DNA of 64,000 bases from a virus, in the IMG/VR virus record IMGVR_UViG_3300042923_000502, positions 1 through 64,000 of that record; one strand, given 5' to 3'. A model generated the notes under the pieces. It was not told the DNA's origin and did not search any database. It saw only the letters and a list, made by a program, of their open reading frames with translations. A program made the position numbers and the translations under genes. Shown here piece after piece: positions 32,510-48,356 of the stretch (its first letter is position 1; the number at the start of each line of letters is the position of its first letter).

Positions 32510-32563
32510 GATAGATCACCTCATAGTGTTTTGTTATTTTATTTGGTGCTTGATCCTATTTTT

Positions 32564-34205: not shown

Positions 34206-35230
34206 AGAAAGCGCTTTCTTGGGAAATAAGTTGATTTGACGCCATTTGCAAACGCTTACATTTTAAAAAAGAGCGATTATTTCCCAAAACGCATGAATAA
34301 ATATGCATAAAAGTAGCATATGTAATCGCTTACATGCATACTTATTCATCCATACACACAAATGAGTGATAAAATGAGGATAAATCGCACATATCTAATA
34401 AATAGATGAATTATCATTTTCCAATCTAAATATGATATAGATTCAAAATCACTGATTGAAAACGCTTTCATTATACATATATATCCATATTAGTAATATA
34501 AAGTGTTATCTGACAAATAATGTTTAAATGGATATATATGTAAGCAAAACATACCCATAATGACTTACATTGTCTAGGGAATAGAGAATCATAAAAACGT
34601 TGTCACAAGGATTGTAAGCCGCTTTAATCACGTTCAATAGTGCATCTAATACCCATGTTAGGGTACACATATTGAACGTCTTAGAAGGGCAAATAAAGCG
34701 CTTACATTTCAATCGTATGTAAGCCATAAAAAATGTAAATATTTTCAAAATGAATATTTATGCATAAAAATGTTTCGGATGCATACCCGAAAATTTTTCC
34801 GAACATTAAAAAAGTCTTATGTATCAAGGCTTTGTGGCACTTACTTTCTGATAGTGACATTCATAAGCAAAAGTTATCACTATGATAAAAAAATCAAAAG
34901 TCCTTATGTAGCAAGGGATTGCGTTATTTTTACCAATATATGTATATACATTAAAAAATCTAATTGTGTCAATATTGTGAACGAATTTTAAAATTTATTG
35001 AAATACGATATTGACATTTTAGAATCATTTGATCCATCATTTTTAAAACACGAACATTATGACCGATTATGGCACAATATATAGTCAAAATCCGAACATT
35101 AAGCCATTTTAGCCTTTTTAGCTTAAAAAATGAACTATAATGCGAACATAAATTCTCATATTGACACCTAAAATATGGATATTGTAAGCGCTTACTTTCT
35201 ACTAAAAATTGTCAATTGTAAACGCTTACA
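34206..35230. repeat. Seven cre-like palindromes
   Basis: 14-base sites close to TGTAANCGNTTACA at 34206 (AGAAAGCGCTTTCT), 34247 (TGCAAACGCTTACA), 34321 (TGTAATCGCTTACA), 34457 (TGAAAACGCTTTCA), 34693 (ATAAAGCGCTTACA), 35183 (TGTAAGCGCTTACT) and 35217 (TGTAAACGCTTACA). This is the consensus of Firmicutes CcpA/LacI-family operators, but no gene lies nearby. Confidence 0.75.
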
Positions 35231-35261
35231 TGCAAAATAATACGAACATATGGGAACATAA
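34800..35261 (+). repeat. Direct repeats CGAACATWA
   Basis: Same-orientation copies at 34800, 35051, 35093, 35143, 35243 and a variant at 35253 (GGAACATAA). Interleaved with the cre-like sites. Half of a Gram-positive LexA box (CGAAC) or iterons for a Rep/partition protein. Confidence 0.55.
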
Positions 35262-35304
35262 TGTGTACATTTTGTGAAAACGGGCTTTTCAATGCTTTAT
35301 ACAT

Positions 35305-35333
35305 TTGCATACATTCCTATTACTTTGTAATAT
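35305..35333 (+). promoter_or_regulatory. Promoter of the large candidate RNA
   Basis: TTGCAT (35305-35310), 17 bases, TAATAT (35328-35333). The GC content jumps right after the expected start near 35340. Confidence 0.6.
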
Positions 35334-35339
35334 GGACAT

Positions 35340-36110
35340 ATCAACACGGCAACACGGCAACGAGAGCAACGAACGAACAACCCAACATTAAAAGAGGTTG
35401 AGCGTAGCAAGTGCGGACGACGGAAGCTACCCACACGCGAATAAGTGAGCAAAAGTAAGTCGCTAACTTATGGTAAGTGTGAGATAAAACGAATCAAAAA
35501 TGCTCACAAGGCTTGTACTTAGCGCAATGCCTAATACATGCTAAGGTGAAGTAATCACGGTTTAATGGGACTAGAAAGGGGAATGCAACCCAATAAGGGA
35601 TGTATGAGGAAAACAAGGTTTTGCTAAGTCTCACCTATCCTCACTAATACATGTGATGCAAAAAGATGGTTCTTTGAAAACTTAAAAGGTTTATGCCATA
35701 CCCAAAAAGGCATACATTGTATGAATTTAATCTCTAGTCTAATCGAATGGTTAAGACAATGAGGTAAGAAAATTTCTAGTAATAGTGAAGCGAATTGTCC
35801 AATGGAGACAATGAGCGCACATGAGCGGAAAAGCGTAACGCATTGCATACGTGAAGTGTTCATAAACTAGGAAAAGATTATTGCCTTATATGTATGAGAA
35901 TCTTAGACGAATTGGTTAACATTTATGTTAGCCAAGTGCGATTAAATAGCGTGTCAACGTTGGTCATACAATGTAAAAATCATCCTTTAATCATCCTAAA
36001 GGCGTTGCCTAAGATGCTATGGAGTACATATGTATTGTGTAGCATCTTGGACAACGTTGTAAGCAACTTACAAATAGTAGGTTACTTACAACGTTGTACA
36101 TACAACGAAT
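35340..36110 (+). ncRNA. Candidate large structured non-coding RNA
   Basis: About 770 bases without a credible gene, near 45-50% GC at its start against ~25% just upstream. Stems in order: GTAGC/GCTAC (35404, 35426), TAAGT/ACTTA (35456), CTTAGC/GCTAAG (35518, 35540), ATGTAT-GAGG/CCTC..ATACAT (35600-35652), TATGCC/GGCATA (35692), ATTGTC/GACAAT (35794), TTGGTTAAC/GTTAGCCAA (35912), AAGATGCTA/TAGCATCTT (36011, 36040), then the 13-bp hairpin at 36051. Size, setting (phage with tRNA arrays) and density of stems recall GOLLD/ROOL-type RNAs, though I cannot show homology. Confidence 0.55.
36051..36097 (+). repeat. Hairpin 0, ahead of the small-gene cassette
   Basis: ACAACGTTGTAAG (36051-36063)/CTTACAACGTTGT (36085-36097), perfect 13 bp. 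Could be the 3' end of the large RNA or the first intergenic hairpin. Confidence 0.75.
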
Positions 36111-36132
36111 AAAAAAATGGAGTGATTAAATT

Positions 36133-36792
36133 ATGCACCTTCCACAAATTAAAGTACCCGATATGAAAACGGTTATCAATGTTCCGATTCTTTTGTCCAC
36201 TAAAGAATTTCCGATTTTGTCGGAATATAACTCTTTCAAGGCTACCGGAGAAGTATTCAAGAATGCCGGAGACAATAGCGCCTATAATCTAGCACCTATT
36301 CACGCATGGGTTAACATTGATCAATTACAAGGTGAAATGGGAGCGGCATCACGGTTAGGTTTTGGTATGTATGATTCCGACTTGGACAAAAAGAACGGGT
36401 TGTATTACACAATGAAGCTAGATGAAAAGGGAGAAGGTCGGCACGTAAACGGCACAATAACATATACTATTGTGGCGGTTATGGTTAAAGGCAAAAAATA
36501 TTCCGTGAAGAAAGATCACAAGTTACCGAACGGAACAACAATTCAAACCAAATTCGAGTTCTCTTACAATGGTAAGAGCGCGAAAAATTCCACACTTTTT
36601 AAGCTTTTGCGCAAGCTCATTGCAAACGGGTTGTTACAATTTGACAAAACAACTCACTTGGAATTGCTTGGAAAAGTTGACAAAGAAAAGAAAGACGAAA
36701 AGCCCGCAAGTGTGGACATTCCGCAAGCCCCAAAAGGTAAGAGACGTAACAAAAGCGCAAGCGCGGAAGAATCAAAAGCCGCAAATGCTTAA
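36133..36792 (+). CDS. Unknown protein opening the rightward cassette
   Basis: 219 residues (MHLPQIKVPDMKTVINVPIL start), ATG behind ATGGAGTGAT. The first ~170 residues look like a compact beta-rich domain, with a basic, lysine- and alanine-rich tail (APKGKRRNKSASAEESKAAN). The acidic/basic layout would suit a nucleic-acid-binding protein, but I recognise no family. It is the largest of the early cassette genes. Confidence 0.7.
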   Translation: MHLPQIKVPDMKTVINVPILLSTKEFPILSEYNSFKATGEVFKNAGDNSAYNLAPIHAWVNIDQLQGEMGAASRLGFGMYDSDLDKKNGLYYTMKLDEKGEGRHVNGTITYTIVAVMVKGKKYSVKKDHKLPNGTTIQTKFEFSYNGKSAKNSTLFKLLRKLIANGLLQFDKTTHLELLGKVDKEKKDEKPASVDIPQAPKGKRRNKSASAEESKAANA

Positions 36793-36799
36793 TTTAAAA

Positions 36800-36864
36800 T
36801 TTAAAAATGATAGTAGTTAACAATTAGTAACTATGCTAATTGTTAACTATTCTTGATTTTTAAA
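36800..36864 (+). repeat. Intergenic two-tier hairpin 1
   Basis: Outer TTTAAAAAT (36800)/ATTTTTAAA (36856), inner TAGTTAACAATTA (36814)/TAATTGTTAACTA (36837). Followed by GTAAAGGATGG and the next ATG. Confidence 0.8.
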
Positions 36865-36887
36865 TTAAATGTAAAGGATGGTAAAAA

Positions 36888-36971
36888 ATGGAAATTAAAA
36901 AATGGAAATTAAAAAATGACAAGCCATGCCGCAAATGTGGCAAGCCGGGTTGCCGTTGTTCTTTACTCTAA
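36888..36971 (+). CDS. 27-residue zinc-knuckle peptide
   Basis: MEIKKWKLKNDKPCRKCGKP then GCRCSLL: four cysteines as CxxC..CxC, likely one zinc site. AAAGGATGG stands nine bases upstream. Flanked on both sides by members of the hairpin family, which supports it as a real cassette gene despite its size. Confidence 0.6.
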   Translation: MEIKKWKLKNDKPCRKCGKPGCRCSLL

Positions 36972-37031
36972 TTTTTGTAAGATATGGTATATAACACAAC
37001 TATTGTTATATACCAAATTGTTACAAAAATT
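36970..37031 (+). repeat. Intergenic two-tier hairpin 2
   Basis: Outer AATTTTTGTAA (36970, overlapping the stop)/TTACAAAAATT (37021), inner TGGTATATAAC (36985)/GTTATATACCA (37005). Confidence 0.85.
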
Positions 37032-37052
37032 TACAAAAAAGGATGATAAAAA

Positions 37053-37328
37053 ATGGAAAAAATTATCAAAATTGGAAATATTGTTATTTATGAGAAACTT
37101 TGTATGATAGATTTTTGGGTTGAATCTTCTATCGGTCGAAAAGATATGACACATAGCGAACTATACAACTTGCTAGTTGATTGCGACCAATGGAAAGTAA
37201 GAGATACAAGCGGCTTCATAACCTTTTGGCATGGAAAAATAGAAGTAACCGCATTTGTTAAGGAACGCGCAACAAGGGCATATTTTAACCCGGAATTAGT
37301 AGAAACAAATGCCGATTTTGCGGTATAA
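37053..37328 (+). CDS. Cassette gene, unknown
   Basis: 91 residues (MEKIIKIGNIVIYEKLCMID start), ATG behind AAAAGGATGATAAAA. Alpha/beta with a tryptophan-rich middle (DQWKVRDTSGFITFWHG). No family recognised. Confidence 0.68.
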   Translation: MEKIIKIGNIVIYEKLCMIDFWVESSIGRKDMTHSELYNLLVDCDQWKVRDTSGFITFWHGKIEVTAFVKERATRAYFNPELVETNADFAV

Positions 37329-37329
37329 C

Positions 37330-37391
37330 AATTTTTGGAAGAACTAGCATATAACATTAATTAAGTTATATGCTAACTTGTTTCAAAAATT
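37330..37391 (+). repeat. Intergenic two-tier hairpin 3
   Basis: Outer AATTTTTGGAA (37330)/TTTCAAAAATT (37381) with one G-U, inner TAGCATATAAC (37345)/GTTATATGCTA (37365). Confidence 0.85.
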
Positions 37392-37412
37392 TAACAAAAG
37401 GATGATAAAAAA

Positions 37413-37796
37413 ATGGAAATAAATCTAAGTTTTAGCGAGTTTCAACAAAAAGCGAGCATTTCCCAATTAATGGAAATTTTCAAAAAATTGGAAGAAAAAC
37501 AAAGTTTTTTAAACTTTCCATTTGAAACAATGAGAATTGAAATAACACTTTCCTTTAATTATTACAATTACATAAAAAAAGGAAAAAAAGTTATATCTAG
37601 TAACATTTCTTTGTTAGTCGATTTGCATCATAGAATAAATAACAATTCTTGGCACATGGATTGGATAAGATTGGATAATATTACATTAACTAGTTCACAA
37701 GTAGAATATTTTAACAATCTTGGCTTTACATTTGAGAATGAAGTTAAACAAGTCGCTAACAATGAAAATAGTCTATCAATAATTGTAAAAGATTGA
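37413..37796 (+). CDS. Cassette gene, unknown
   Basis: 127 residues (MEINLSFSEFQQKASISQLM start), ATG after AAAGGATGATAAAAAA. Asparagine- and aromatic-rich, no motif. Its 3' end forms part of hairpin 4. Confidence 0.68.
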   Translation: MEINLSFSEFQQKASISQLMEIFKKLEEKQSFLNFPFETMRIEITLSFNYYNYIKKGKKVISSNISLLVDLHHRINNNSWHMDWIRLDNITLTSSQVEYFNNLGFTFENEVKQVANNENSLSIIVKD

Positions 37797-37837
37797 AAAC
37801 ACGAATATTAGTTCGTGTTTTTTCTTGTTTTACAATT
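37781..37837 (+). repeat. Intergenic two-tier hairpin 4
   Basis: Outer AATTGTAAAA (37781, inside the gene end)/TTTTACAATT (37828), inner AAACACGAA (37797)/TTCGTGTTT (37812), loop TATTAG. Confidence 0.8.
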
Positions 37838-37858
37838 AAACTAAAAAGGATGATAAAA

Positions 37859-38350
37859 ATGGAAATTATGAAACAATATGCTAATTTAAAAATTGCTTAT
37901 GAAAGAGCGAAAGAAGAAGATAAAAATAGTATTAAGGATGAATTAAGGACGTTTCTTTATAACAATCCAAGCATATTATTTCCAATGATTGGTAATAAAT
38001 TATGGGAATATATAGGTGACTATGATCACATAAAAGAGGTTTTACAAGGTGAAGAGGAAAGGGACAAAGAAGAGGGAATAAACGAAGGCATGGTCTATTA
38101 TGATGCTACTATCGACTATACCGCAAAAGCTTTAGAAGCGGTTTTACGAATGGTTTTAGAATGGCACATCGAAAGCAATTTTAAATATGTTTCTTTTGGG
38201 CAAACTTACGTGAGCTTTTGGATTTATGCCGAAAAAGAAAATAAAACAAGATTTAACATTGAAACGGATATTTTACACATCATGGAAAATGAAATAAATG
38301 GTAAAAATGATTATGAAATGGTAATTGATGAAAGTGAATATATAGTATAA
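37859..38350 (+). CDS. Cassette gene, unknown
   Basis: 163 residues from MEIMKQYANLKIAYERAKEE, behind AAAGGATGATAAAA; an upstream in-frame ATG lies inside hairpin 4. Acidic helical N-terminus; the C-terminal part contains YVSFGQTYVSFWI, which resembles YACYGETYVELHF in the gene at 39109, so the two may share a domain. Confidence 0.66.
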   Translation: MEIMKQYANLKIAYERAKEEDKNSIKDELRTFLYNNPSILFPMIGNKLWEYIGDYDHIKEVLQGEEERDKEEGINEGMVYYDATIDYTAKALEAVLRMVLEWHIESNFKYVSFGQTYVSFWIYAEKENKTRFNIETDILHIMENEINGKNDYEMVIDESEYIV

Positions 38351-38410
38351 TTTTTGTAAGATAGGCAATATAAGTAAAATTTACTTATATTGCTAATTGT
38401 TACAAAAATT
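38349..38410 (+). repeat. Intergenic two-tier hairpin 5
   Basis: Outer AATTTTTGTAA (38349)/TTACAAAAATT (38400), identical to hairpin 2; inner GCAATATAAGTAAA (38365)/TTTACTTATATTGC (38380), different from hairpin 2. Confidence 0.85.
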
Positions 38411-38430
38411 TAAAAAAAGGATGATTGCAC

Positions 38431-39021
38431 ATGAGAGAAGTTAAACCATTTGAAAAAGTCGGAGAAATTAGGAATTCTTATGTAACATACAAATATTACG
38501 ATTATACCCAATATTCTAATCATAAAGATGAAATGTTAAAAAATGGGTATAGAGAAATAAACCAAATGTCATTAGAAGAAAATGACATTTGGTGCAAATT
38601 TGTAGAATACAAGGAAATTCCATTCCATGAAAGAAATTTTTCTAATTTAGATTGGGATAATAACGAAAGTGAATTGCAAGAAATTATGGATACTATGGCA
38701 AGCAATCCGCTTCAATGGGTAATCCCAAGATTTGGAGCAAAAGCGCGGCAAACAATGGGCGAATTATTTAAATACAATTACAAAGTATTTTATGAAGTAT
38801 GCGACTTATTAATAACACCAATTATGGAATCACATGGAGACTATGAAATATTTGGTGAAAATTTATTTAATGTCATTTTGTCAAATGTTAACAAATACGG
38901 TATTTTAGAAAATGACAATTATAAAATGCATCTTTCTAATGAATACGGTGTAACCGTCGAAACCGATTATTATAGAGGTGGTACTTGGGGAAGCTTTACA
39001 ATTGACGAAAGCGGATACTAA
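38431..39021 (+). CDS. Cassette gene, unknown
   Basis: 196 residues (MREVKPFEKVGEIRNSYVTY start) behind AAAAGGATGATTGCAC. Tyrosine- and asparagine-rich; C-terminus ETDYYRGGTWGSFTIDESGY echoes the ends of several neighbours. Unrecognised. Confidence 0.66.
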   Translation: MREVKPFEKVGEIRNSYVTYKYYDYTQYSNHKDEMLKNGYREINQMSLEENDIWCKFVEYKEIPFHERNFSNLDWDNNESELQEIMDTMASNPLQWVIPRFGAKARQTMGELFKYNYKVFYEVCDLLITPIMESHGDYEIFGENLFNVILSNVNKYGILENDNYKMHLSNEYGVTVETDYYRGGTWGSFTIDESGY

Positions 39022-39022
39022 C

Positions 39023-39082
39023 AATTTTTGAAAGAAAGAGCATATAACACAAACGGTTATATGCTCCATTGTTTCAAAAATT
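39023..39082 (+). repeat. Intergenic two-tier hairpin 6
   Basis: Outer AATTTTTGAAA (39023)/TTTCAAAAATT (39072), inner GAGCATATAAC (39038)/GTTATATGCTC (39056). Confidence 0.85.
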
Positions 39083-39108
39083 TAATAAGTAAAAGGAATG
39101 ATTGTAAA

Positions 39109-39372
39109 ATGATGGTAGTAATAGAGAGACAGGAAAGAGTAGAAGTCAAGTCAGTGATTGGTGCAAGATTACGTAAGATGATTAAAAAGTTGCCGCAATA
39201 CATCAAAACTGATATTTTTAAAATGATACATAATACATCAGGTGATTATGCTTGTTACGGTGAGACATATGTTGAACTACATTTCAGCAAGCAATGCCTG
39301 TCAGCAATTACATTGGATGCTATAAATATTGATGATAATACATCAAAACGTTTTACGCTTATCATCGAATAA
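39109..39372 (+). CDS. Cassette gene, unknown
   Basis: 87 residues (MMVVIERQERVEVKSVIGAR start), behind AAAAGGAATGATTG. The longer frame from 39028 would start inside hairpin 6. Contains SGDYACYGETYVELHF, similar to a segment of the 163-residue gene. Confidence 0.65.
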   Translation: MMVVIERQERVEVKSVIGARLRKMIKKLPQYIKTDIFKMIHNTSGDYACYGETYVELHFSKQCLSAITLDAINIDDNTSKRFTLIIE

Positions 39373-39378
39373 GACATA

Positions 39379-39439
39379 AAATTTGAAAAGATAGAAAGAT
39401 ACGAATATAAATTCGTATCTTTTAATTGTTTTCAAATTT
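39379..39439 (+). repeat. Intergenic two-tier hairpin 7
   Basis: Outer AAATTTGAAAA (39379)/TTTTCAAATTT (39429), inner AAAGATACGAA (39395)/TTCGTATCTTT (39412). Confidence 0.85.
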
Positions 39440-39462
39440 AACAAAAAAAGGATGATAACACA

Positions 39463-39699
39463 ATGGGAAATAGAGAAGTTATTGCTTGCTGGGGAATTTC
39501 AAATGTTGCGTCATTAAACGTATGGGAAATGAGATCAGATGAAGCAATGTTGGTGGGAATTAATGACGATGAACCTGAGTGGTGCGAAATTGAATTTATA
39601 CCAAATGAAGAATCTTTAAGTGATGATTACGAAACAGTTAATGTAATTAATTTCCATGGAAATATATACCGACTTGACGAATGTATGAGAGTTAGATAA
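39463..39699 (+). CDS. Cassette gene, unknown
   Basis: 78 residues (MGNREVIACWGISNVASLNV start), acidic. Leader AAAGGATGATAACACA. No family recognised. Confidence 0.66.
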   Translation: MGNREVIACWGISNVASLNVWEMRSDEAMLVGINDDEPEWCEIEFIPNEESLSDDYETVNVINFHGNIYRLDECMRVR

Positions 39700-39761
39700 T
39701 TCAGTGACTCATAGTGCCATCTATACAACTATATATAGATGGTATTATTGATTTACCGAAT
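39699..39761 (+). repeat. Intergenic two-tier hairpin 8 (ATTCAG subfamily)
   Basis: Outer ATTCAGTGA (39699)/TTACCGAAT (39753), inner TGCCATCTATA (39714)/TATAGATGGTA. First member of the second outer-stem subfamily. Confidence 0.82.
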
Positions 39762-39801
39762 AACACAAAATCATATAACGCTTGAAAGGATGTATACCAA
39801 C

Positions 39802-40113
39802 ATGAAAACTTATGCAATACATGTAAGAATGAAGCCTATTCAAATTGTAGAAGCTTCTAACCGCGCTGACGCTATTGAAATTATCCGTAAAAAGTTTGTC
39901 AATGCTTTTATTACAAAGGTAGAAAAGACACAGAAAAAAGCGCTTTGGTGTGATCGTATTGTCCTTGTAACGCCTAATAACACAAAGTACAAGCCTTTCA
40001 CAGTTACATATTTTGAATATTGTGACGAGAATGCTTTACAAGTTGCCAGAGACAATGGATATGACAAAATCGGCACAATAGAAATTTTTAATTCGGTTAC
40101 AAATGTCATATAA
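39802..40113 (+). CDS. Cassette gene, unknown
   Basis: 103 residues (MKTYAIHVRMKPIQIVEASN start), behind AAAGGATGTATACCAAC. The opening (YAIHVRxKPIxIVEASxRADA) looks like a small ferredoxin-like fold domain seen in phage hypotheticals. Function unknown. Confidence 0.66.
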   Translation: MKTYAIHVRMKPIQIVEASNRADAIEIIRKKFVNAFITKVEKTQKKALWCDRIVLVTPNNTKYKPFTVTYFEYCDENALQVARDNGYDKIGTIEIFNSVTNVI

Positions 40114-40139
40114 AATAACATCATGAAGGAGAATTTCAC

Positions 40140-40346
40140 ATGAAAAAAATCCAAATCAGAAATTTGTTTGATGTTGCCGTTGAAATGAAATTGTCAGCGA
40201 AATATTATGCGGTTATCTTATTTCAACTTAACAAAGAAATGGCAATAAAACTTAGACGGCAATGGATAACCGGACGTATAACACAAATTGAATATAGTGA
40301 CAGATTGGTTGATTCCATTTTAAGAGAAGTACAGTCTATCAGTTAG
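40140..40346 (+). CDS. Cassette gene, unknown
   Basis: 68 residues (MKKIQIRNLFDVAVEMKLSA start), basic, helical. GAAGGAGAATTTCAC before ATG. No hairpin precedes it, so it is coupled to the 103-residue gene. Confidence 0.64.
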   Translation: MKKIQIRNLFDVAVEMKLSAKYYAVILFQLNKEMAIKLRRQWITGRITQIEYSDRLVDSILREVQSIS

Positions 40347-40418
40347 TGAATGACAATGACATTAAGCCATAACACGGCTATATATGTAAGGCTTAATGTT
40401 ATTAGTGAGTTACTAACT
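40341..40418 (+). repeat. Intergenic two-tier hairpin 9
   Basis: Outer AGTTAGTGA (40341, containing the stop)/TTACTAACT (40410), inner ACATTAAGCC (40359)/GGCTTAATGT (40390). A unique outer-stem sequence that still pairs. Confidence 0.8.
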
Positions 40419-40452
40419 ACAAATTATCAATATATAAAAAGGATGGTTAAAT

Positions 40453-40746
40453 ATGGAAATGAAGAAGAATTCTGATGTGATTAAGGCGTTTCTCATGGGA
40501 TACAAGGAAGGACAGGCAAACAATCTTAGAATTGAAGAAAGAGCAGGAAGAACAGCTTTATTAAACTTTGATACAGTTTTGGCAGAAATTATGGATCACG
40601 GCAAAGATATTCATATTAACAAGAGTAATTACGGCAGAAGCACTACACGAATTCAGAACGAATTGATCCGCAAGGTTGAAGAAGACAAGAGTATCAGAGT
40701 ATTTTACTACTTTGGTATTGACAAGCACAGCAAAATATTGGTTTAA
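40453..40746 (+). CDS. Cassette gene, unknown
   Basis: 97 residues (MEMKKNSDVIKAFLMGYKEG start), helical and charged; ends ..YYFGIDKHSKILV. AAAAGGATGGTTAAAT leader. Confidence 0.66.
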   Translation: MEMKKNSDVIKAFLMGYKEGQANNLRIEERAGRTALLNFDTVLAEIMDHGKDIHINKSNYGRSTTRIQNELIRKVEEDKSIRVFYYFGIDKHSKILV

Positions 40747-40758
40747 GGAGAGAAGACA

Positions 40759-40914
40759 ATGACAAAACGAACTCAGAAAGAATTATTGGAATGGGACTTG
40801 GAAAATGCGCGTGAATCATGGACAAAATCAGAAACTCAAGAACAATCAGCAATGTGGTATTCAGAGATGAAGAAAATTGAATCTCAGATTGATGAAATGG
40901 AGACACAGAAATGA
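40759..40914 (+). CDS. Short helical protein
   Basis: 51 residues (MTKRTQKELLEWDLENARES start), almost wholly helical, AAGGAGAGAAG ahead. Its stop overlaps the next start (ATGA). Confidence 0.6.
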   Translation: MTKRTQKELLEWDLENARESWTKSETQEQSAMWYSEMKKIESQIDEMETQK

Positions 40915-41072
40915 CAGAAAAATATTATCAAATACAAGCTGATCTAAGGGAAGCAAATAAAAGCGGAGACTTAAAAAAGATTAAGCGACTCAGAAACAAG
41001 TTAACAAAGTGGCAGATTGCTTATGGAGCGTATGCACCTATAACACAAGAAAATTGCCACAAGTATGATTGA
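40911..41072 (+). CDS. Short basic helical protein
   Basis: 53 residues (MTEKYYQIQADLREANKSGD start). Four-base overlap with the previous gene shows coupling. Unknown. Confidence 0.6.
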   Translation: MTEKYYQIQADLREANKSGDLKKIKRLRNKLTKWQIAYGAYAPITQENCHKYD

Positions 41073-41131
41073 TTCAGTGAATGATAGTCCTCTATAACAT
41101 ACAAGTATAGAGGACAATTGATTTATTGAAT
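41072..41131 (+). repeat. Intergenic two-tier hairpin 10
   Basis: Outer ATTCAGTGAAT (41072)/ATTTATTGAAT (41121) with G-U pairs, inner GTCCTCTATA (41087)/TATAGAGGAC (41106). Confidence 0.85.
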
Positions 41132-41163
41132 TACAAATAATATAAAAAAGGATGATAACACGA

Positions 41164-41361
41164 ATGTCAATGACCAAACGAGAGATCAAAAAAGCATCAG
41201 AATTAGTTCCAAACTTCATTAAAGTATTTGAGAACGATGTGCAAGAAGACATTCATACAGACGCAAAAGAAATGACATATGAAGAATTTGAACTGATTTG
41301 CCGATTGCATGAAAAGCTAACACATGCTATAAACTATGTTGACCAGAGTATTTTCAAATAA
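41164..41361 (+). CDS. Cassette gene, unknown
   Basis: 65 residues (MSMTKREIKKASELVPNFIK start); leader AAAGGATGATAACACGA. The ATG inside GGATGATAA (41152) is in frame but is part of the ribosome site. Helical, acidic. Confidence 0.64.
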   Translation: MSMTKREIKKASELVPNFIKVFENDVQEDIHTDAKEMTYEEFELICRLHEKLTHAINYVDQSIFK

Positions 41362-41423
41362 TTCAGTGATTCAAAGTGCGTTCTATAATACATATTATAG
41401 AGCGTATTATTGTTTTACCGAAT
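41361..41423 (+). repeat. Intergenic two-tier hairpin 11
   Basis: Outer ATTCAGTGA (41361)/TTACCGAAT (41415), inner TGCGTTCTATAAT/ATTATAGAGCGTA. Confidence 0.85.
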
Positions 41424-41451
41424 TACACTAAATTAAAAAGGATGATAACAC

Positions 41452-41739
41452 ATGAGCAAACTTTATAAAGGAAATGTAAAAACATCGGACGTACATTATC
41501 AAGAGGTTATTCTTACAGCACAAAGAAATGGTAATGACATAAACGGAAATAGCAAGTACAAGGTTCAGGTTTGGATGATTGTAAAAGATGATCACAATAT
41601 GGAATCAGGTACTCTATGGAGTCCTGTGGTAAAAGGATATAGAAAAAATAAGTATGACGAATACACATTAGTATCATCTGACCTTGATCATGATGTTACA
41701 CGCTTTATTGAAGCTTTTGAAAAAACGGTTAGAGCTTAA
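41452..41739 (+). CDS. Cassette gene, unknown
   Basis: 95 residues (MSKLYKGNVKTSDVHYQEVI start), leader AAAAGGATGATAACAC. Beta-rich, unrecognised. Confidence 0.66.
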   Translation: MSKLYKGNVKTSDVHYQEVILTAQRNGNDINGNSKYKVQVWMIVKDDHNMESGTLWSPVVKGYRKNKYDEYTLVSSDLDHDVTRFIEAFEKTVRA

Positions 41740-41799
41740 TCAGTGATAAAAAGTGTCTTACATGATCATATTATGTAAGGCATTATTGTATTACTGATT
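41738..41799 (+). repeat. Intergenic two-tier hairpin 12
   Basis: Outer AATCAGTGAT (41738)/ATTACTGATT (41790), inner TGTCTTACAT/ATGTAAGGCA. Confidence 0.85.
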
Positions 41800-41828
41800 T
41801 TAAATTACAATGAAAAGGATGATATAAC

Positions 41829-42257
41829 ATGACAACAAAACCATTTACAACCAGAGGGCAAATTGTAGCGGTAACACTTGACAACAATGGTAAAGAGCTT
41901 GCAGTAAGTGTATGCATGAATCCAGACAATATCAGCGAAGCCATTTTGGAAGCTTCAAACGGTGATACGCTTATAGTCAAGTGGGAACGTATTACATTTT
42001 GCAGAGACTATAAACCTTTTGAATTGAATCGCCTTAACAAAGGAGATAATGTTCAAGGCAGAGAAGTTTTGAAAGTAAAAAACTTTCCGCATGATCATCA
42101 CTTACAACTTGTTCTGTGCAAGTGGAAAGAGTTCAGATTCGTTGTATGGCAATACAACATAGAATCAGAAGGTTTTAACTTCGGATACTATTACACATCA
42201 ATAGAAGATGCTGAGGAAAAATTTAAAGAACGTATGGAATACTATGACATCAAGTAA
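41829..42257 (+). CDS. Cassette gene, unknown
   Basis: 142 residues (MTTKPFTTRGQIVAVTLDNN start), leader AAAGGATGATATAAC. Two beta-rich halves joined near residue 75; a small-molecule or nucleic-acid binding barrel is possible but unproven. Confidence 0.67.
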   Translation: MTTKPFTTRGQIVAVTLDNNGKELAVSVCMNPDNISEAILEASNGDTLIVKWERITFCRDYKPFELNRLNKGDNVQGREVLKVKNFPHDHHLQLVLCKWKEFRFVVWQYNIESEGFNFGYYYTSIEDAEEKFKERMEYYDIK

Positions 42258-42320
42258 ATTCAGTGATTCAAAATGCCTTATATAAACCATATTATATAAG
42301 GCATCATTGCTTTACTGAAT
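42258..42320 (+). repeat. Intergenic two-tier hairpin 13
   Basis: Outer ATTCAGTGA (42258)/TTACTGAAT (42312), inner ATGCCTTATATA/TATATAAGGCAT, perfect 12 bp. Confidence 0.87.
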
Positions 42321-42349
42321 AACATTACATTACAAAAGGATGATAAGTT

Positions 42350-42553
42350 ATGTACAAATATGAAAAAGAACTGATCAAGATTGTGGAGAGTGTAGGTGAT
42401 GGCAGAACTATTGCTGATCTTTCGGAAAAAAGCTTTAGAAACCGCGAATTTGAAAGCTTTGAAGCTCATGAAATTTATGATATTGCAAGAGGTTCCAGTC
42501 ATTTCAGATACGATGAACGGACTCAGAAGGTTTACTTAGTTAAAAATTCATAA
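42350..42553 (+). CDS. Cassette gene, unknown
   Basis: 67 residues (MYKYEKELIKIVESVGDGRT start), leader AAAGGATGATAAGTT. C-terminal FRYDERTQKVYLVKNS looks like a wing, so a winged-helix fold is possible. Confidence 0.64.
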   Translation: MYKYEKELIKIVESVGDGRTIADLSEKSFRNREFESFEAHEIYDIARGSSHFRYDERTQKVYLVKNS

Positions 42554-42605
42554 TTCATATGTTGCCTTTTACATATAGTAAAGGGCAAAAATGTATTATG
42601 AATTA
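42551..42605 (+). repeat. Intergenic two-tier hairpin 14
   Basis: Outer TAATTCATA (42551, includes the stop)/TATGAATTA (42597), inner TTGCCTTTTAC/GTAAAGGGCAA. Confidence 0.85.
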
Positions 42606-42626
42606 TATAAGAAAGGATGATATTAA

Positions 42627-43016
42627 ATGTCAGATAGAAAAAAATATAGCTTCAATTATAGCTATGATGAAGTTGTATCGTTTAATCATAAATTGTTGAA
42701 CGACATTTCAGATCCAGAGTATGACTACAAATTGACAACTGACTTCAAAGATGCAATTTATCTTTTGCATGATGCCAAAATGATTTCAGGCGGCAAAGCA
42801 GAAGCAGGTTTTCGGCATATTGATCATCGTATGATTGAATGCACAATGGAGATTGACAGATACAATGACAATTTTTGGGATGAAGTCCATGCCAGATTTA
42901 AAATTGTACGCCTTGTACCAGAAAGTGAATATGCATTGATCAAAAAAGGTCAGGTTTTAACACGCATTCAGGAATATTTAATTAAAGAAAATGGGTATAT
43001 AATAGAAGAATATTAA
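42627..43016 (+). CDS. Cassette gene, unknown
   Basis: 129 residues (MSDRKKYSFNYSYDEVVSFN start), leader AAAGGATGATATTAA. Mixed alpha/beta, ends KENGYIIEEY. Unrecognised. Confidence 0.66.
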   Translation: MSDRKKYSFNYSYDEVVSFNHKLLNDISDPEYDYKLTTDFKDAIYLLHDAKMISGGKAEAGFRHIDHRMIECTMEIDRYNDNFWDEVHARFKIVRLVPESEYALIKKGQVLTRIQEYLIKENGYIIEEY

Positions 43017-43034
43017 AAGAGAGGAAGATATAAA

Positions 43035-43241
43035 ATGGCAATGATTCAGTCACACTATGAGATCAACGTTTCACTTAATGGTAGGCACTTATTTGCGACA
43101 GCGGAGAGAAGTTGCGTAACACAGGACGATTTAAATAAGGTATTAGACATATTTGTTGCCAAGTTTCCAAAATCAGAAGGATATAAAATATCTTACTCTC
43201 ACATTAAATGTGAAGGAAGATCAAAGGAAGTCAGAAACTAA
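43035..43241 (+). CDS. Cassette gene, unknown
   Basis: 68 residues (MAMIQSHYEINVSLNGRHLF start) with AAGAGAGGAAGATATAAA upstream. No hairpin precedes it, so it shares a unit with the 129-residue gene. Confidence 0.63.
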   Translation: MAMIQSHYEINVSLNGRHLFATAERSCVTQDDLNKVLDIFVAKFPKSEGYKISYSHIKCEGRSKEVRN

Positions 43242-43303
43242 TTCGGTCAATGATAGCACCTTGTATAAACATATTATATAAGGTGTAATTGATTCACTGA
43301 ATT
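43240..43303 (+). repeat. Intergenic two-tier hairpin 15
   Basis: Outer AATTCGGTCAAT (43240)/ATTCACTGAATT (43292), inner CACCTTGTATA/TATATAAGGTG. Confidence 0.83.
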
Positions 43304-43333
43304 AACAAATAAATTAAAAAAGGATGATTAAAT

Positions 43334-43993
43334 ATGTTTATGACAAAACAATATCCGACAGTTTACGAGAAGTTTGGTGATGTCAATCCTATTGAACATG
43401 GCGGAGGTCTTTACACAGAAATTTCCGATGGCGTATTCGATATTATTCATATCGAACCAGATCAAAACAGATGTGATCTTGGTTGGTTTAATGTGGTTCA
43501 AGTTGACACAAACGATTCTTGGATTCAGGAGAAGAAAGAAGGCTTGTTTTCGACTTATGATATGAACGAATCACAGAATAATAGCATCGACTTTGCTCTT
43601 GCCTGCATCGGATATTTTGGAATCGAAAATTTTGGTGGAGATCAAAGTTACGAAATGCTGATTGACAAAAGGGATATTGAAGAGTCATTGAATGAAGTTA
43701 TTACAGAAAACTTTATCCAAGATGATAACACTATCAGATGCAAGGTTATCAATTATTTCGATGTATGGGGCAATCAGAAAGATGGTTATCAAGTTAATAA
43801 CATGTGCAATGAAGGTGAAATCACAGTTCCTAAAGATGCATCCAACAGAGATGTTGTCGATGCATTAAAGAAAATGGGATTCTTCAAAAAACATGTTCGT
43901 ATGAATATGTGTCAGTTTGAAAGTGCATATATCGACGTATGGGTAATTAACGATTCAAAAGGAAAACCTGTTTGTTGCGTTGAGCCACTATAA
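43334..43993 (+). CDS. Cassette gene, unknown
   Basis: 219 residues (MFMTKQYPTVYEKFGDVNPI start), acidic, with DLGWFNVVQVDTNDSWIQEK in the first half and YFDVWGNQKDGYQVNN in the second. The second half may be a separate small domain. No family recognised. Confidence 0.67.
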   Translation: MFMTKQYPTVYEKFGDVNPIEHGGGLYTEISDGVFDIIHIEPDQNRCDLGWFNVVQVDTNDSWIQEKKEGLFSTYDMNESQNNSIDFALACIGYFGIENFGGDQSYEMLIDKRDIEESLNEVITENFIQDDNTIRCKVINYFDVWGNQKDGYQVNNMCNEGEITVPKDASNRDVVDALKKMGFFKKHVRMNMCQFESAYIDVWVINDSKGKPVCCVEPL

Positions 43994-43994
43994 C

Positions 43995-44058
43995 ATTCAG
44001 AACTAAATACTATGTCTTTCTACTCATATAGTAGGAAGACATAAATTGTTTTCTGAAT
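43995..44058 (+). repeat. Intergenic two-tier hairpin 16 (ATTCAGAA subfamily)
   Basis: Outer ATTCAGAA (43995)/TTCTGAAT (44051), inner TATGTCTTTCTAC/GTAGGAAGACATA. Confidence 0.85.
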
Positions 44059-44087
44059 AAAAATAATATTGCAAAGGATGATAAACA

Positions 44088-44303
44088 ATGCGTATAACAC
44101 CCGAATACAGAAACCACTTGAAAGTTGAAGGACATAAAGGCACATGGTATGTTGTCGATGAAACTAATCACAATGACCAACAGGTTTATCTGTTGGAGCA
44201 TGAGAAATACGGTGAAGATGTTGCCTGTCTTATTGTTGACAAGGATTTGAATGTTCTGGTTGACGATGTTTGGAATGGATTCGATGATTTAGAGTATTTG
44301 TAA
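44088..44303 (+). CDS. Cassette gene, unknown
   Basis: 71 residues (MRITPEYRNHLKVEGHKGTW start), acidic C-terminus (DDVWNGFDDLEYL). Leader AAAGGATGATAAACA. Confidence 0.65.
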   Translation: MRITPEYRNHLKVEGHKGTWYVVDETNHNDQQVYLLEHEKYGEDVACLIVDKDLNVLVDDVWNGFDDLEYL

Positions 44304-44329
44304 AATCAAACATCAAAGGAGAATAACAG

Positions 44330-44488
44330 ATGAAATCACTAAAAAGAAGATATTATTGTTCAGCTAAGGACAACAAAGGTCAATTGACACAATTTGAGTT
44401 AGTTGCTGAGAGCAAGAAAGAAGCAGTGCAGAGATGCAAAGATGAATGCAAAAGACTTGATTATGTATTCATGGAAGTAAGCTTATAG
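44330..44488 (+). CDS. Short basic protein
   Basis: 52 residues (MKSLKRRYYCSAKDNKGQLT start), AAAGGAGAATAACAG upstream. Three cysteines but no clear metal site. Follows the 71-residue gene without a hairpin. Confidence 0.62.
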   Translation: MKSLKRRYYCSAKDNKGQLTQFELVAESKKEAVQRCKDECKRLDYVFMEVSL

Positions 44489-44493
44489 CAGGT

Positions 44494-44560
44494 AGTTTCA
44501 GAATTGATTGTGCCTTACATTACAACATTATATGTAAGGCATTAATGAGTTATTGAAACT
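44494..44560 (+). repeat. Intergenic two-tier hairpin 17
   Basis: Outer AGTTTCA (44494)/TGAAACT (44554), inner TGCCTTACAT/ATGTAAGGCA. Confidence 0.8.
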
Positions 44561-44579
44561 CAAGAAAGGATGATAAACA

Positions 44580-44798
44580 GTGATTGTTGGATATTATTGT
44601 CACAAAGAAGACAAGGAATTAACAGGATTAAATGTAATGGTAGTATTGAAACATGATAATGGACAATTAGAAGCGTATTGTCCATCAGAACAACACTTTC
44701 CATTGACAGAAGAATATTTTAATGAATGTGTTAGAATAACAAAAGAGCAATATGTCAATGCCAGCTCGTTGTGGACTCCGGCTGAATACTTAAACTAA
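44580..44798 (+). CDS. Cassette gene, unknown
   Basis: 72 residues from GTG (VIVGYYCHKEDKELTGLNVM), leader AAAGGATGATAAACA. No family recognised. Confidence 0.64.
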   Translation: MIVGYYCHKEDKELTGLNVMVVLKHDNGQLEAYCPSEQHFPLTEEYFNECVRITKEQYVNASSLWTPAEYLN

Positions 44799-44821
44799 AT
44801 TAGAAAAGAGGATGATAACAT

Positions 44822-45238
44822 ATGACAAGTCAAAGAAGTGTTGCTGTAGAAAGATTTGAAAAGTTGGAAGAAATGGGATATTCTCACACGGATATTCTTA
44901 ATTACATTCTTTTCAATTGGATGAACGCTGATGATGCATGTGAAAGCCTTGAAGGATTCGCAGGAGACATGGACTTCTCCTTTGAAGAAGATGAAGCAGA
45001 AGAAGGCACAGAAAATGAAATTGAACCTACCTATGAAGTAGGCGACACCGTAACAATAGCAAGTGACAATGAAAATTATTTTGAATACTTAGGAAAAGAC
45101 CTTACAGTAGCCAAAGTTTCAACAAGTATTGAAGATCATCCTGGTTTTGATGACTCAGTAGGAGAAGCCTTGTATGACCTTGAGACGGAAGATGGCGAAC
45201 CTGTACCATTTTCGGTGTATGAATATGAATTGAATTGA
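44822..45238 (+). CDS. Cassette gene, acidic two-part protein
   Basis: 138 residues. N-terminal three-helix segment (VERFEKLEEMGYSHTDILNY), an acidic linker (EEDEAEEGTENEIE), then a beta-rich SH3-like part (YEVGDTVTIASDNENYFEYL). The layout suggests a small adaptor protein; function unknown. Confidence 0.66.
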   Translation: MTSQRSVAVERFEKLEEMGYSHTDILNYILFNWMNADDACESLEGFAGDMDFSFEEDEAEEGTENEIEPTYEVGDTVTIASDNENYFEYLGKDLTVAKVSTSIEDHPGFDDSVGEALYDLETEDGEPVPFSVYEYELN

Positions 45239-45302
45239 TTCAGAATAATATACTATGCTCTTTACTCTATATATAGTAGAGAGCATAAATACTTTTCTGA
45301 AT
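45238..45302 (+). repeat. Intergenic two-tier hairpin 18
   Basis: Outer ATTCAGAA (45238)/TTCTGAAT (45295), inner TATGCTCTTTACT/AGTAGAGAGCATA. Confidence 0.86.
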
Positions 45303-45334
45303 AGAAAAGAATAACATTAAAAGGATGATAACAC

Positions 45335-45715
45335 ATGAGAACAACGAAAAAAGAATTTGTAGCTCAGATTCAAGAACATATTGCAAATAGATTGTCGGAA
45401 GATGAAACAACGGTATTGAGCGAACAGCTGCAAAATGTTATGGATGACTTTAAAGATTGGTATAATCCATATGAGAAGAAATTGACACCAAACAGGCATG
45501 ATGCTCTTAAACATTGGCTGTGGGGTCTTCCATCGTCATTATCTCTTGAGTATCAACACTACAATATCAGTAAGATTCTTAAAAAATGGTTTAATGAGTG
45601 TGGGGAAGAATATAAGGAAATTGGAGATGGCAGAAAAGAAGCTGATTTTTATATGAATTTGGTAATACGCGAATTTAACAAAATGTATAACAAGCATTGC
45701 AAGCAAACGAATTAA
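45335..45715 (+). CDS. Cassette gene, unknown
   Basis: 126 residues (MRTTKKEFVAQIQEHIANRL start), helical, leader AAAAGGATGATAACAC. Unrecognised. Confidence 0.67.
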   Translation: MRTTKKEFVAQIQEHIANRLSEDETTVLSEQLQNVMDDFKDWYNPYEKKLTPNRHDALKHWLWGLPSSLSLEYQHYNISKILKKWFNECGEEYKEIGDGRKEADFYMNLVIREFNKMYNKHCKQTN

Positions 45716-45777
45716 TTCAGAATTTTATTATACCTTTTATATTGCAATATATAAAAGGTATAAATACTTTTCTGAAT
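45715..45777 (+). repeat. Intergenic two-tier hairpin 19
   Basis: Outer ATTCAGAA (45715)/TTCTGAAT (45770), inner TATACCTTTTATAT/ATATAAAAGGTATA. Confidence 0.86.
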
Positions 45778-45810
45778 GGAAAGTAAATTTAACGGATAAG
45801 GATGATCATA

Positions 45811-46155
45811 ATGGCATATACTATGCTTACACCAGAAGTTGTTGAATTTCTCTCAAAAGAGGAATTAAAAGGTAAATTAATGACGTTGCGCATGTCTTCC
45901 GTTGCAGACAAGAGAAATACTATTCAATTGTCGGAAGGATTCATTGAATCTGTAAGAGTAAACGAAGAAACAGAAGTTGAAAGAGAAGGATTCAGCATTC
46001 AATTAATGAACAAAAAAGGAGAATTGTATTATAGACCAGAGTGCTTCTTTGGCACATTTGACAATTTTGAAATTAATTCTTATGAAACATCAACAGTACT
46101 TAGAATTAATTACAAAGATCAAAGCTACTTTATTATTAAGATTTACGGCATATAA
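45811..46155 (+). CDS. Cassette gene, paralog of the next gene
   Basis: 114 residues (MAYTMLTPEVVEFLSKEELK start). Shares with the following gene the pattern (L/I)TPE(V/I)(V/I)xx-LS, a central F(I/V)(E/D)S(V/I)(R/K)V strand and the ending xIxIYG(I/V), so the pair arose by tandem duplication. Function unknown. Confidence 0.68.
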   Translation: MAYTMLTPEVVEFLSKEELKGKLMTLRMSSVADKRNTIQLSEGFIESVRVNEETEVEREGFSIQLMNKKGELYYRPECFFGTFDNFEINSYETSTVLRINYKDQSYFIIKIYGI

Positions 46156-46179
46156 CACATTAAAAAAAGGGGAATGAAA

Positions 46180-46494
46180 ATGACAGAAAACATAATAACA
46201 CCAGAGATAATTGACTTACTCTCTAGTAAAGATGTAAATGACAAATTAATTACAGTGAGTACATCAACGAATAGATCAAATAGTGTAATTTCAGGATTTG
46301 TTGATAGTATCAAGGTAATTGATGGTAAGGAAATAGTAATTCAGATTGGTGATAAAAATGAAAATCTGATGGGTGAACCGCTTATCTTTAAAGATTTTGA
46401 CAAGATATTTATAGGTACTGATAGCATATGTACCAAACTAAGACTTCAACATTTAAATGGTGATTATTCATTTATTCAAATTTACGGAGTATAA
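46180..46494 (+). CDS. Cassette gene, paralog of the previous gene
   Basis: 104 residues (MTENIITPEIIDLLSSKDVN start). ATG chosen seven bases after AAAAGGGG; an ATG two codons earlier is too close to it. No hairpin separates it from its paralog. Confidence 0.67.
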   Translation: MTENIITPEIIDLLSSKDVNDKLITVSTSTNRSNSVISGFVDSIKVIDGKEIVIQIGDKNENLMGEPLIFKDFDKIFIGTDSICTKLRLQHLNGDYSFIQIYGV

Positions 46495-46555
46495 TTCAGA
46501 ATAACATATGATGCCTTTTACTTGTAATAAGTAGAAGGCATAAATGCTCTTCTGA
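46495..46555 (+). repeat. Intergenic two-tier hairpin 20
   Basis: Outer TCAGAA (46496)/TTCTGA (46550), inner ATGCCTTTTACTT/AAGTAGAAGGCAT. Confidence 0.84.
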
Positions 46556-46591
46556 GCAACAAATAACACCAAGAAAAGGGGAATGATAACC

Positions 46592-46771
46592 ATGACAAAA
46601 GTAGCGACATCAGGAAAAATTAAGACACGAAAAGAGCATACTGTGTCGGGACGTTCCAACGTCACAAACGAAGTATACAAAAGAATATTTACAAGCTATT
46701 CAGAAATGAACAAGTGGGCTGAAAAGAATGATCTTGTAATATTCAACGTTGTTACAAAGGTTATCAAATAA
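46592..46771 (+). CDS. Short basic protein
   Basis: 59 residues (MTKVATSGKIKTRKEHTVSG start), leader AAAAGGGGAATGATAACC. Very basic N-terminus. Unrecognised. Confidence 0.62.
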   Translation: MTKVATSGKIKTRKEHTVSGRSNVTNEVYKRIFTSYSEMNKWAEKNDLVIFNVVTKVIK

Positions 46772-46792
46772 CAGATAAAAGGAGATTGAGCA

Positions 46793-47188
46793 ATGACAAA
46801 ACACATTAAATTGAACATTAAGGTAATGCTTAATACGAATTTCGGAAAAGTTCAGATTGGTGAAATTTCATTAAATCCAAGTGTAATGGGAAGCATATCA
46901 GAAGAGTATATTGTAGAGCAATGGTTCAAAAATGTTAATGTAAATGTTCAGCAAATTGCTAGAGTATGGACACAGGCGGAAAACCGCTCTTATCTGTATG
47001 GAGTTCATTATCACAATAACGGAAAAGAACTATATGAATTCTATTATGTTTCAAGAGGTATGCTGTATGATGACCATGGATATTTAGAAGAAATTGAAGT
47101 AGGCGAATTTTTAGGAGACTTGACAACACTCGATCAGGCAACGGCTTTGGATGCGTTTATGGTGAAGATCAAAGAAGAATTGAGTTAA
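46793..47188 (+). CDS. Cassette gene, unknown
   Basis: 131 residues (MTKHIKLNIKVMLNTNFGKV start), AAAGGAGATTGAGCA upstream. Mixed fold, acidic C-terminus. No family recognised. Confidence 0.66.
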   Translation: MTKHIKLNIKVMLNTNFGKVQIGEISLNPSVMGSISEEYIVEQWFKNVNVNVQQIARVWTQAENRSYLYGVHYHNNGKELYEFYYVSRGMLYDDHGYLEEIEVGEFLGDLTTLDQATALDAFMVKIKEELS

Positions 47189-47250
47189 TTCAGAATAATA
47201 TACTATGTCTTTTACTTCTAATAGTAGAAGACATAAATACTCTTCTGAGT
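47188..47250 (+). repeat. Intergenic two-tier hairpin 21
   Basis: Outer ATTCAGAA (47188)/TTCTGAGT (47243), inner TATGTCTTTTACT/AGTAGAAGACATA. Confidence 0.85.
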
Positions 47251-47274
47251 AATCATAACAAAGGAGTGGTAACA

Positions 47275-47691
47275 ATGAAATACAAAACGATTGGAACAGT
47301 TAGACTTGCAAAGCGTCTTAAAAACCTTAGCAAAGGTGATGTAATCCTTGACACAGCATTTAACAAATACGCTAACGGTGTAACAAGCTACAGCTTATGC
47401 ATTTGGGAAGTAATCAAGAAACATGTTGATATTAGCCTTATACACAAAGCAGAGATGACTTTCACGCAAAAAGATTGGTATACGTTGACTCTATCTCATA
47501 AAGACGGATACACTTTTAAATTACGCGGTATGTCATCTGGTTATTATGGCGAAGGATCAAGAGCAACAGAAAAAGTTTTGCTTGATTGTGGATTCAGTCA
47601 AAGTGCTATTGATATTATCTTTATCAAAAATAACGAAAATTGGATCATTCGCAAGTTTGCAACAAAGGGAACTAGAGTTCACATCAGATAA
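47275..47691 (+). CDS. Cassette gene, unknown
   Basis: 138 residues (MKYKTIGTVRLAKRLKNLSK start), AAAGGAGTGGTAACA upstream. Basic, with a lysine-rich first half. Unrecognised. Confidence 0.66.
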   Translation: MKYKTIGTVRLAKRLKNLSKGDVILDTAFNKYANGVTSYSLCIWEVIKKHVDISLIHKAEMTFTQKDWYTLTLSHKDGYTFKLRGMSSGYYGEGSRATEKVLLDCGFSQSAIDIIFIKNNENWIIRKFATKGTRVHIR

Positions 47692-47705
47692 AGGAGTGAA
47701 GATAC

Positions 47706-47879
47706 ATGATAAAACAATACGTTTACCATAACACAACAACAGATGAAGTCGTAGGGTTCAATGCTAATAGCCTACACCAATCAAAGATCAGAATGAGAAG
47801 GCTATCCAGAGTTCATTTCATCGGTAGCAAGGCAAGTGATTGGAAGTTTGTTAAAACAGATAAAAAAATGAGACACTGA
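47706..47879 (+). CDS. Short basic protein
   Basis: 57 residues (MIKQYVYHNTTTDEVVGFNA start), AAAGGAGTGAAGATAC upstream. Arginine/lysine-rich C-terminal half. Last gene before an internal promoter. Confidence 0.62.
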   Translation: MIKQYVYHNTTTDEVVGFNANSLHQSKIRMRRLSRVHFIGSKASDWKFVKTDKKMRH

Positions 47880-47888
47880 AAATTATAC

Positions 47889-47916
47889 TTGCATAGTCGG
47901 TAAAATGTGGTATAAT
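47889..47916 (+). promoter_or_regulatory. Promoter
   Basis: TTGCAT (47889-47894), 16 bases, TATAAT (47911-47916); AGATAAAA follows at 47937 in the leader. Confidence 0.65.
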
Positions 47917-47944
47917 AGTAGTTGGCACAAATAAAAGATAAAAC

Positions 47945-48006
47945 ATCAGATTGGAGCTTATGCCTTTCACGCAACATATAGTGAAGGGTATAAATGATTC
48001 ACTGAT
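47945..48006 (+). repeat. Intergenic two-tier hairpin 22 (last copy)
   Basis: Outer ATCAG (47945)/CTGAT (48002), inner TTATGCCTTTCAC/GTGAAGGGTATAA. This copy lies downstream of a promoter, so it is in a 5' leader rather than between co-transcribed genes. Confidence 0.78.
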
Positions 48007-48032
48007 TTAACACAAAGAGAGGATGACAACAA

Positions 48033-48356
48033 ATGGAAGTTTTAGTTATGCCAAACGGTCAAACTGAAATTATCTCCGATGAAAGAGATTTGATTGAATT
48101 TATTGGCAGAGTAATGGGTTATGAAGTAAAGATAATGGTTGAAGAAATTTCCAAGAGAGCAGATAAAGCCGCTATTTTGGCTGATTCGGATTTTAAATCA
48201 TATGAAATGCAAGTTGAAGAAAATCATGATGCCTTTCAGGAATTAGCTGGATTGGTCAATAGGGTTTATGAAGAATTGGATAAGGAAAGAATGAATAAAA
48301 AGAAAATAACATCTATCATTGACAGGATGGATCATGTAGTAAGCAATCAAATCTAA
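48033..48356 (+). CDS. Helical protein, unknown
   Basis: 107 residues (MEVLVMPNGQTEIISDERDL start), acidic, mostly helical, GAGGATGACAACAA leader. First gene of the unit leading to the helicase. Confidence 0.66.
   Translation: MEVLVMPNGQTEIISDERDLIEFIGRVMGYEVKIMVEEISKRADKAAILADSDFKSYEMQVEENHDAFQELAGLVNRVYEELDKERMNKKKITSIIDRMDHVVSNQI

Follow-up and report, generated by a model that had tools for sequence, protein, structure and literature searches.

The first 64,000 bases (the window) of virus record IMGVR_UViG_3300042923_000502, a phage genome of 170,562 bases that we call G000, contain an array of about 31 small genes on the plus strand (window positions 36133-48356), in which sequence inspection and local folding reveal 23 two-tier hairpins within 36,050-48,008. 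Our analysis provides strong evidence that selection acts on the RNA of the transcribed strand in these hairpins. The interpretation that we favour, at a probability of roughly 0.55, is that they are functional counterparts of the RNase III processing signals between phage T7 genes and would mark the sites at which a long message is cut into single-gene units. All comparative results rest on two genomes, G000 and its relative G001, and gene calls were made by a simple script. G001 (166,838 bases; helicase 73% and portal protein 78% identical to those of G000) is the sole relative found in IMG/VR; searches there with the helicase, two array proteins, the portal protein and two DNA patterns matched only this genome.

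Anatomy and covariation of the hairpins

Every tandem array gap of at least 45 bases carries a two-tier hairpin (n = 20 gaps of 45-220 nucleotides). A strict energy and shape filter is passed by 19 of these 20 gaps, and the hairpin of the remaining gap (45,713-45,777), outside the filter, is still two-tier by its own fold. The same filter is passed by 1 of 400 shuffled array gaps and by 12 of the 59 gaps in the rest of the 170.6-kb genome, several of the latter being terminators or a tRNA. Total helix length is 20-30 bp per hairpin: inner stems mostly measure 10-15 bp and outer stems mostly 8-12 bp, and between them lies a small internal loop or bulge cluster, about one helical turn from the base and from the apical loop. 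The 5' arm usually begins at the stop codon of the preceding gene; between the end of the 3' arm and the next start codon there are 18-37 nucleotides, one larger distance stemming from an uncalled 27-codon frame at about 36,888-36,971. By reading, the outer arms are of AATTTTTG, ATTCAGTGA or ATTCAGAA types. These three types succeed one another along the array, and adjacent hairpins are most alike (Mantel r = -0.61, with 0 of 5000 permutations as extreme).

In type B hairpins 96% of alignment cells are paired and 9 pairs differ in both arms; none of the measures is equalled in 500 shuffles. For type C, 0 of 500 shuffles reach the observed values, except for the count of further pair types (46 of 500). 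Because both structures were derived from the same alignments on which they were tested, the comparison of matched hairpins between G000 and G001 is the more independent test. It covers 11 hairpin pairs, one of them outside the array (50,921-50,975) and some between different genes. In these, 224 base pairs are unchanged, 18 have one-sided changes and remain paired, 20 are compensatory and 9 are broken. When the 3' letters were re-dealt as a null, compensatory changes averaged 2.6 (maximum 8 in 5000) and broken pairs 32.7 (minimum 25).

Whether the folded molecule is RNA or DNA can be read from mismatches and strand. G-T mismatches in the stems outnumber A-C mismatches by 51 to 16 (p = 2e-5), against a ratio of 1.07 expected from composition, whereas selection on a cruciform would predict about equal frequencies. 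In 34 of 38 copies the sense strand gives the more stable fold. Since the hairpin boundaries came from folding that strand, the strand test was redone on whole gaps against shuffles, giving a mean difference of -4.1 kcal/mol compared with -0.45 for the shuffles (a value this low in 0 of 20,000 resamplings). Together, the surplus of G-U over A-C and the more stable fold of the transcribed strand indicate that RNA, and not a DNA cruciform, is under selection.

A covariance model, R1, was built from 11 type B copies. Type C hairpins and several further copies are also recovered by it, in both phages, which makes the types look like one family. Up to E = 1 there was no match in the rest of G000, in the Bacillus phages FADO and vB_BcoS-136, in T7 or in the other contigs searched; outside both arrays the sole match lies in another part of G001 and is marginal (E 0.42). 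In an Rfam search of the window nothing but tRNAs scored above the curated cut-off, and the hairpins match no Rfam family. A preliminary description of this DNA had placed the design in 22 gaps, held that pairing rather than sequence is selected, in an RNA or a cruciform, and proposed a covariance model, a statistical covariation test and a search of phage genomes. The design was recognised correctly, its number was not; selection for pairing is borne out by the type B, type C and G000-G001 comparisons, in the last far beyond the null; of RNA and cruciform, the mismatch and strand tests favour RNA; and the model search is positive in the two arrays and negative in FADO, vB_BcoS-136 and T7.

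The hairpins are linked to an unusual ribosome site. A GGATGA-type site precedes 18 of the 22 genes that follow a hairpin, compared with 1 of 9 array genes without one (p = 5e-4). Outside the array it precedes 4 of 200 genes, GGAG being the usual site there. The link is weaker in G001 (8 of 13 compared with 5 of 18). The leader between hairpin and downstream start is short and A-rich.

Probable processing signals and rival readings

The early region of T7 contains five RNase III sites (R0.3, R0.5, R1, R1.1 and R1.3) in an early message of about 7 kb (PMC4858673). Like these R sites, the array hairpins are irregular, lie between genes, presumably of a polycistronic early-type message, and have a helix above and below an internal loop; an irregular hairpin of about two turns, interrupted by such a loop and situated between coding regions, occurs in all array gaps of at least 45 nucleotides. 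R0.5, R1 and R1.3 fold like the array hairpins in the same program, and it is from this shared shape that we infer cutting by host RNase III. The array differs from T7 in its 23 hairpins in 12 kb, its AT-richness, its three outer-stem families and the linked variant ribosome site, and cleavage, established for the T7 R sites, is conjectural for the array hairpins. The cutting enzyme would presumably be the host's: family searches of G000 gave no phage-encoded RNase III, and the Firmicutes controls of the same searches do have the enzyme.

According to this scenario the array would be transcribed as one long polycistronic message, given that promoters and terminators are almost absent from its interior. 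Folding and covariation agree that the RNA of each gap forms two stacked helices, about two RNA helix turns in total, parted by the small internal loop. Host RNase III would cut at or near this loop, after which the upstream message would keep a 3' hairpin and the downstream message would have an A-rich leader and its own ribosome site; each tiny gene would thereby become a separately stable and separately translated unit. Of the roles listed in the preliminary description (RNA processing, stabilisation, protein binding and recombination joints), processing would match the anatomy best.

Promoters that combine a TTG -35 box with a good -10 box number more than 25 in plus-strand gaps elsewhere; the array gaps have none. 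The sole promoter recognised in the array gaps is an extended -10 promoter (TTGCAT ... TGGTATAAT; 47889-47916, plus strand), the region of which (47868-47956) is 93% identical in G001. Hairpin 23 (47944-48008) follows about 30 nucleotides downstream, between this conserved promoter and the gene at 48033, and a terminator so close behind a promoter would make little sense. Unlike the promoter-poor array, G000 positions 81849-132046 carry a family of near-identical strong promoters (TTGACA ... GATAAAATGATATAAT) ahead of operons. Canonical terminators were found elsewhere in G000 and none among the array hairpins or gaps. Inner stems average 31% GC; behind them comes a slightly T-enriched stretch (on average 4.1 T in 8, interrupted by A or G), which itself forms part of the outer helix; outer stems are followed by almost no T (1.3 in 8). 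An intrinsic terminator requires a GC-rich stem and an immediate T-rich tract, which the hairpins lack, and this identity was rejected. The earlier statement that these are not ordinary terminators thus holds; the accompanying one, that no U-tract follows, is right for a terminator tract but overlooks the mild T-richness behind the inner stems.

Several points weigh against a role in RNase III processing. A two-turn hairpin with an internal loop is a shape and not a signature of RNase III. In some copies (e.g. 36050 and 41737) the interruption is slight or differently placed. The array is known in just two related genomes, G000 and G001, and FADO and vB_BcoS-136 (150 kb of each examined) show scattered hairpins, a few of them two-tiered, and no array.

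Among the alternatives, the hairpins could be message-end stabilisers that block exonucleases from either side after cuts at other places, such as RNase Y cuts in the A-rich leader. Strong AT-rich hairpins right behind a stop codon and ahead of such a leader would fit this role, and the half-life of an SP82 message in B. subtilis was, as summarised in PMC7509114 (citing Hue 1995), shortened by mutations of the ribosome site. A plain stable stem would suffice for stabilisation, however, and the constant internal interruption and the length bound of 20-30 bp need another reason; we consider this explanation unlikely. It is rather improbable that an RNA-binding protein of the phage or the host, such as a translational repressor or an anti-decay factor, binds the hairpins, possibly together with the GGATGA site, and co-regulates the array genes. 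At least three outer-stem sequence types and freely varying inner stems would leave recognition mostly to shape, the ribosome-site link weakens in G001, and a candidate protein was not identified; in favour of such a protein speak the conservation of the outer-stem families and of an ATTG or AATRC stretch downstream of the inner stem, and the strength of the ribosome-site link in G000.

The comparison with G001 adds a second aspect. Gene order and content differ between the two arrays; where stretches of array genes do match, their identity is about 67-80%. Four hairpin-plus-ribosome-site units (39,380; 41,072; 44,492; 45,237) are 85-93% identical in G001 though neither neighbouring gene matches. 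At 43,240 G001 has one extra gene and two hairpins, both of which match the single G000 hairpin. The two G000 genes flanking the hairpin at 43,994-44,060 (window 43334-44303) correspond to the two ends of one 348-aa gene of G001 (61667-62713), which by sequence comparison is a split or fusion at a hairpin unit. Since the four units are conserved between different genes, the hairpin units appear to act as exchange joints as well, presumably through homologous recombination, and the recombination joints suggested in the preliminary description gain independent support from this two-phage pattern. Unit and copies lend themselves to such a use, because hairpin and ribosome site are self-contained and the copies resemble each other; the processing signal could thus double as a homology joint for the gain, loss and swapping of genes.

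A stronger version, in which the hairpins are primarily recombination joints kept for gene swapping as DNA and the RNA fold is secondary, could draw on the same conserved units, on the gain or loss of one gene with one hairpin and on the likeness of neighbours. Plain homologous recombination requires sequence identity and not compensatory change, though, and the mismatch and strand asymmetries indicate RNA; an attC-like mechanism should act on one folded strand of DNA that bears conserved core boxes, and no such boxes were seen by eye. We regard this version as very unlikely. Least probable of all are weak or conditional terminators that tune downstream gene levels: a simple scan does list several hairpins as terminator-like (22 found compared with 5.4 expected, for the region on both strands) and many inner stems precede the T-rich stretch, but this stretch is broken by A or G and belongs to the outer helix of an AT-rich structure, the phage has canonical terminators elsewhere, hairpin 23 sits just behind a conserved promoter, and complete termination at each hairpin would silence the array.

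Returning to processing by RNase III, we tentatively consider a broader possibility, namely that hairpin and variant ribosome site form a promoterless, transferable cassette boundary. A frame placed between two such units might become a separately processed and translated message, and processing signals, rather than promoters or site-specific recombination sites, might be what makes the accessory genes of this phage modular.

Inventory of the array and its surroundings

All 23 hairpins lie on the plus strand (fold energies in kcal/mol). Hairpin 1 (36050-36107; -26.0), of its own type, stands before the first array gene and has a counterpart at 56746 of G001. Hairpin 2 (36798-36866; -26.5) is related to type A and shows 2 compensatory changes in G001 (57519-57587). 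Type A (AATTTTTGTAA) comprises hairpins 3 (36969-37032; -22.5), 4 (37329-37392; -21.3), 5 (37780-37838; -21.8), which begins within the end of the upstream gene, 6 (38348-38412; -24.2), 7 (39022-39085; -23.9) and 8 (39378-39441), for which hairpin and ribosome site are 85% identical in G001, the flanking genes being different. To type B (ATTCAGTGA) belong hairpins 9 (39697-39764; -24.9), 11 (41070-41132; unit 90% identical in G001, different flanking genes), 12 (41359-41427; -26.6 sense, -15.0 antisense), 13 (41737-41801; -27.5 sense, -12.4 antisense), 14 (42256-42320; -26.2) and 16 (43239-43306), which matches the two G001 hairpins flanking the extra gene. Hairpin 10 (40341-40420) is of its own type, and the flanking genes on both its sides are kept in G001; hairpin 15 (42543-42606; -23.8) is intermediate and is matched by model R1. 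Type C (ATTCAGAA) includes hairpins 17 (43994-44060), located between the two ends of the single G001 gene, 19 (45237-45304; unit 85% identical in G001), 20 (45713-45777; -22.9), 21 (46493-46558; -24.0) and 22 (47187-47252; -22.8). Hairpin 18 (44493-44561) is again of its own type, its unit being 93% identical in G001 between different flanking genes.

The array genes are mutually unrelated except for one pair (45811 and 46174), and family searches of the array proteins yielded no function. Further interrupted hairpins occur outside the array, at 50921-50975 and, on the minus strand, at 5611-5692; the former has a G001 counterpart (70151-70203) with five compensatory changes. Just before the array lies a stretch of nearly 4 kb (32140-36000) in which hardly any genes were called and long palindromes are numerous (34018, 34464, 34612, 34950); it may be a regulatory or replication region. 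Elsewhere in the window are about 20 tRNA genes in two main clusters (7616-20059, minus strand), a weak match to the phage tubulin PhuZ (25982-27106; phrog_4733, E 3e-6) and a gene with a GmrSD-type restriction nuclease N-terminal domain (55701-57194; PF03235).

Relatives, known elements and implications

The portal protein of G000 is 35-44% identical to portals of large Firmicutes siphophages, namely the Bacillus phages vB_BcoS-136, FADO and PJN02, the Brevibacillus phage Sundance and the Lactococcus 949 group, and its UvrD-type helicase shares 43% identity with an SPO1-like phage helicase. From these protein relatives the host is probably a bacterium of the phylum Firmicutes. Megablast of G000 against named phages gave no match, and a search of bacterial genomes found no further relatives.

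In SP82, a Firmicutes phage, an early message reportedly has an RNase III site and, behind it, a purine-rich ribosome site that serves as a 5' stabiliser in B. subtilis; unlike in the array, such sites are few. T4-like phages have PeSL cassettes (Arbiol 2010, Comeau 2014, cited in PMC4503421), reportedly small repeated intergenic stem-loop units at exchange points in small-gene-rich regions. They are reported to combine an early promoter with a terminator. Gene exchange at the units between related phages is found in the array too, but its units have neither early promoter nor terminator and their pairing covaries as RNA, and identity with PeSL was rejected. SPBRE of the Bacillus phage SPbeta, also a repeated intergenic element and found in a distantly related phage group, is a promoter DNA motif of 15 bp to which the repressor MrpR binds (PMC10516654); the array consists of hairpins in promoterless gaps, and the two were set apart by description, the motif not having been searched for. 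Integron attC sites were rejected as well: the core boxes (GTTRRRY and partner) are absent by eye only, no formal search having been made, and the sense strand folds better.

The covariance model can be used to look for the same design elsewhere. Large phages have long runs of tiny, fast-turnover genes without known function. In the array of G000 every longer gene boundary has a covarying RNA unit and almost none has a promoter, which amounts to a testable rule of expression and exchange. Such a rule may imply a dependence of the phage on host RNase III, and it bears on how newly acquired phage genes get expressed at once.

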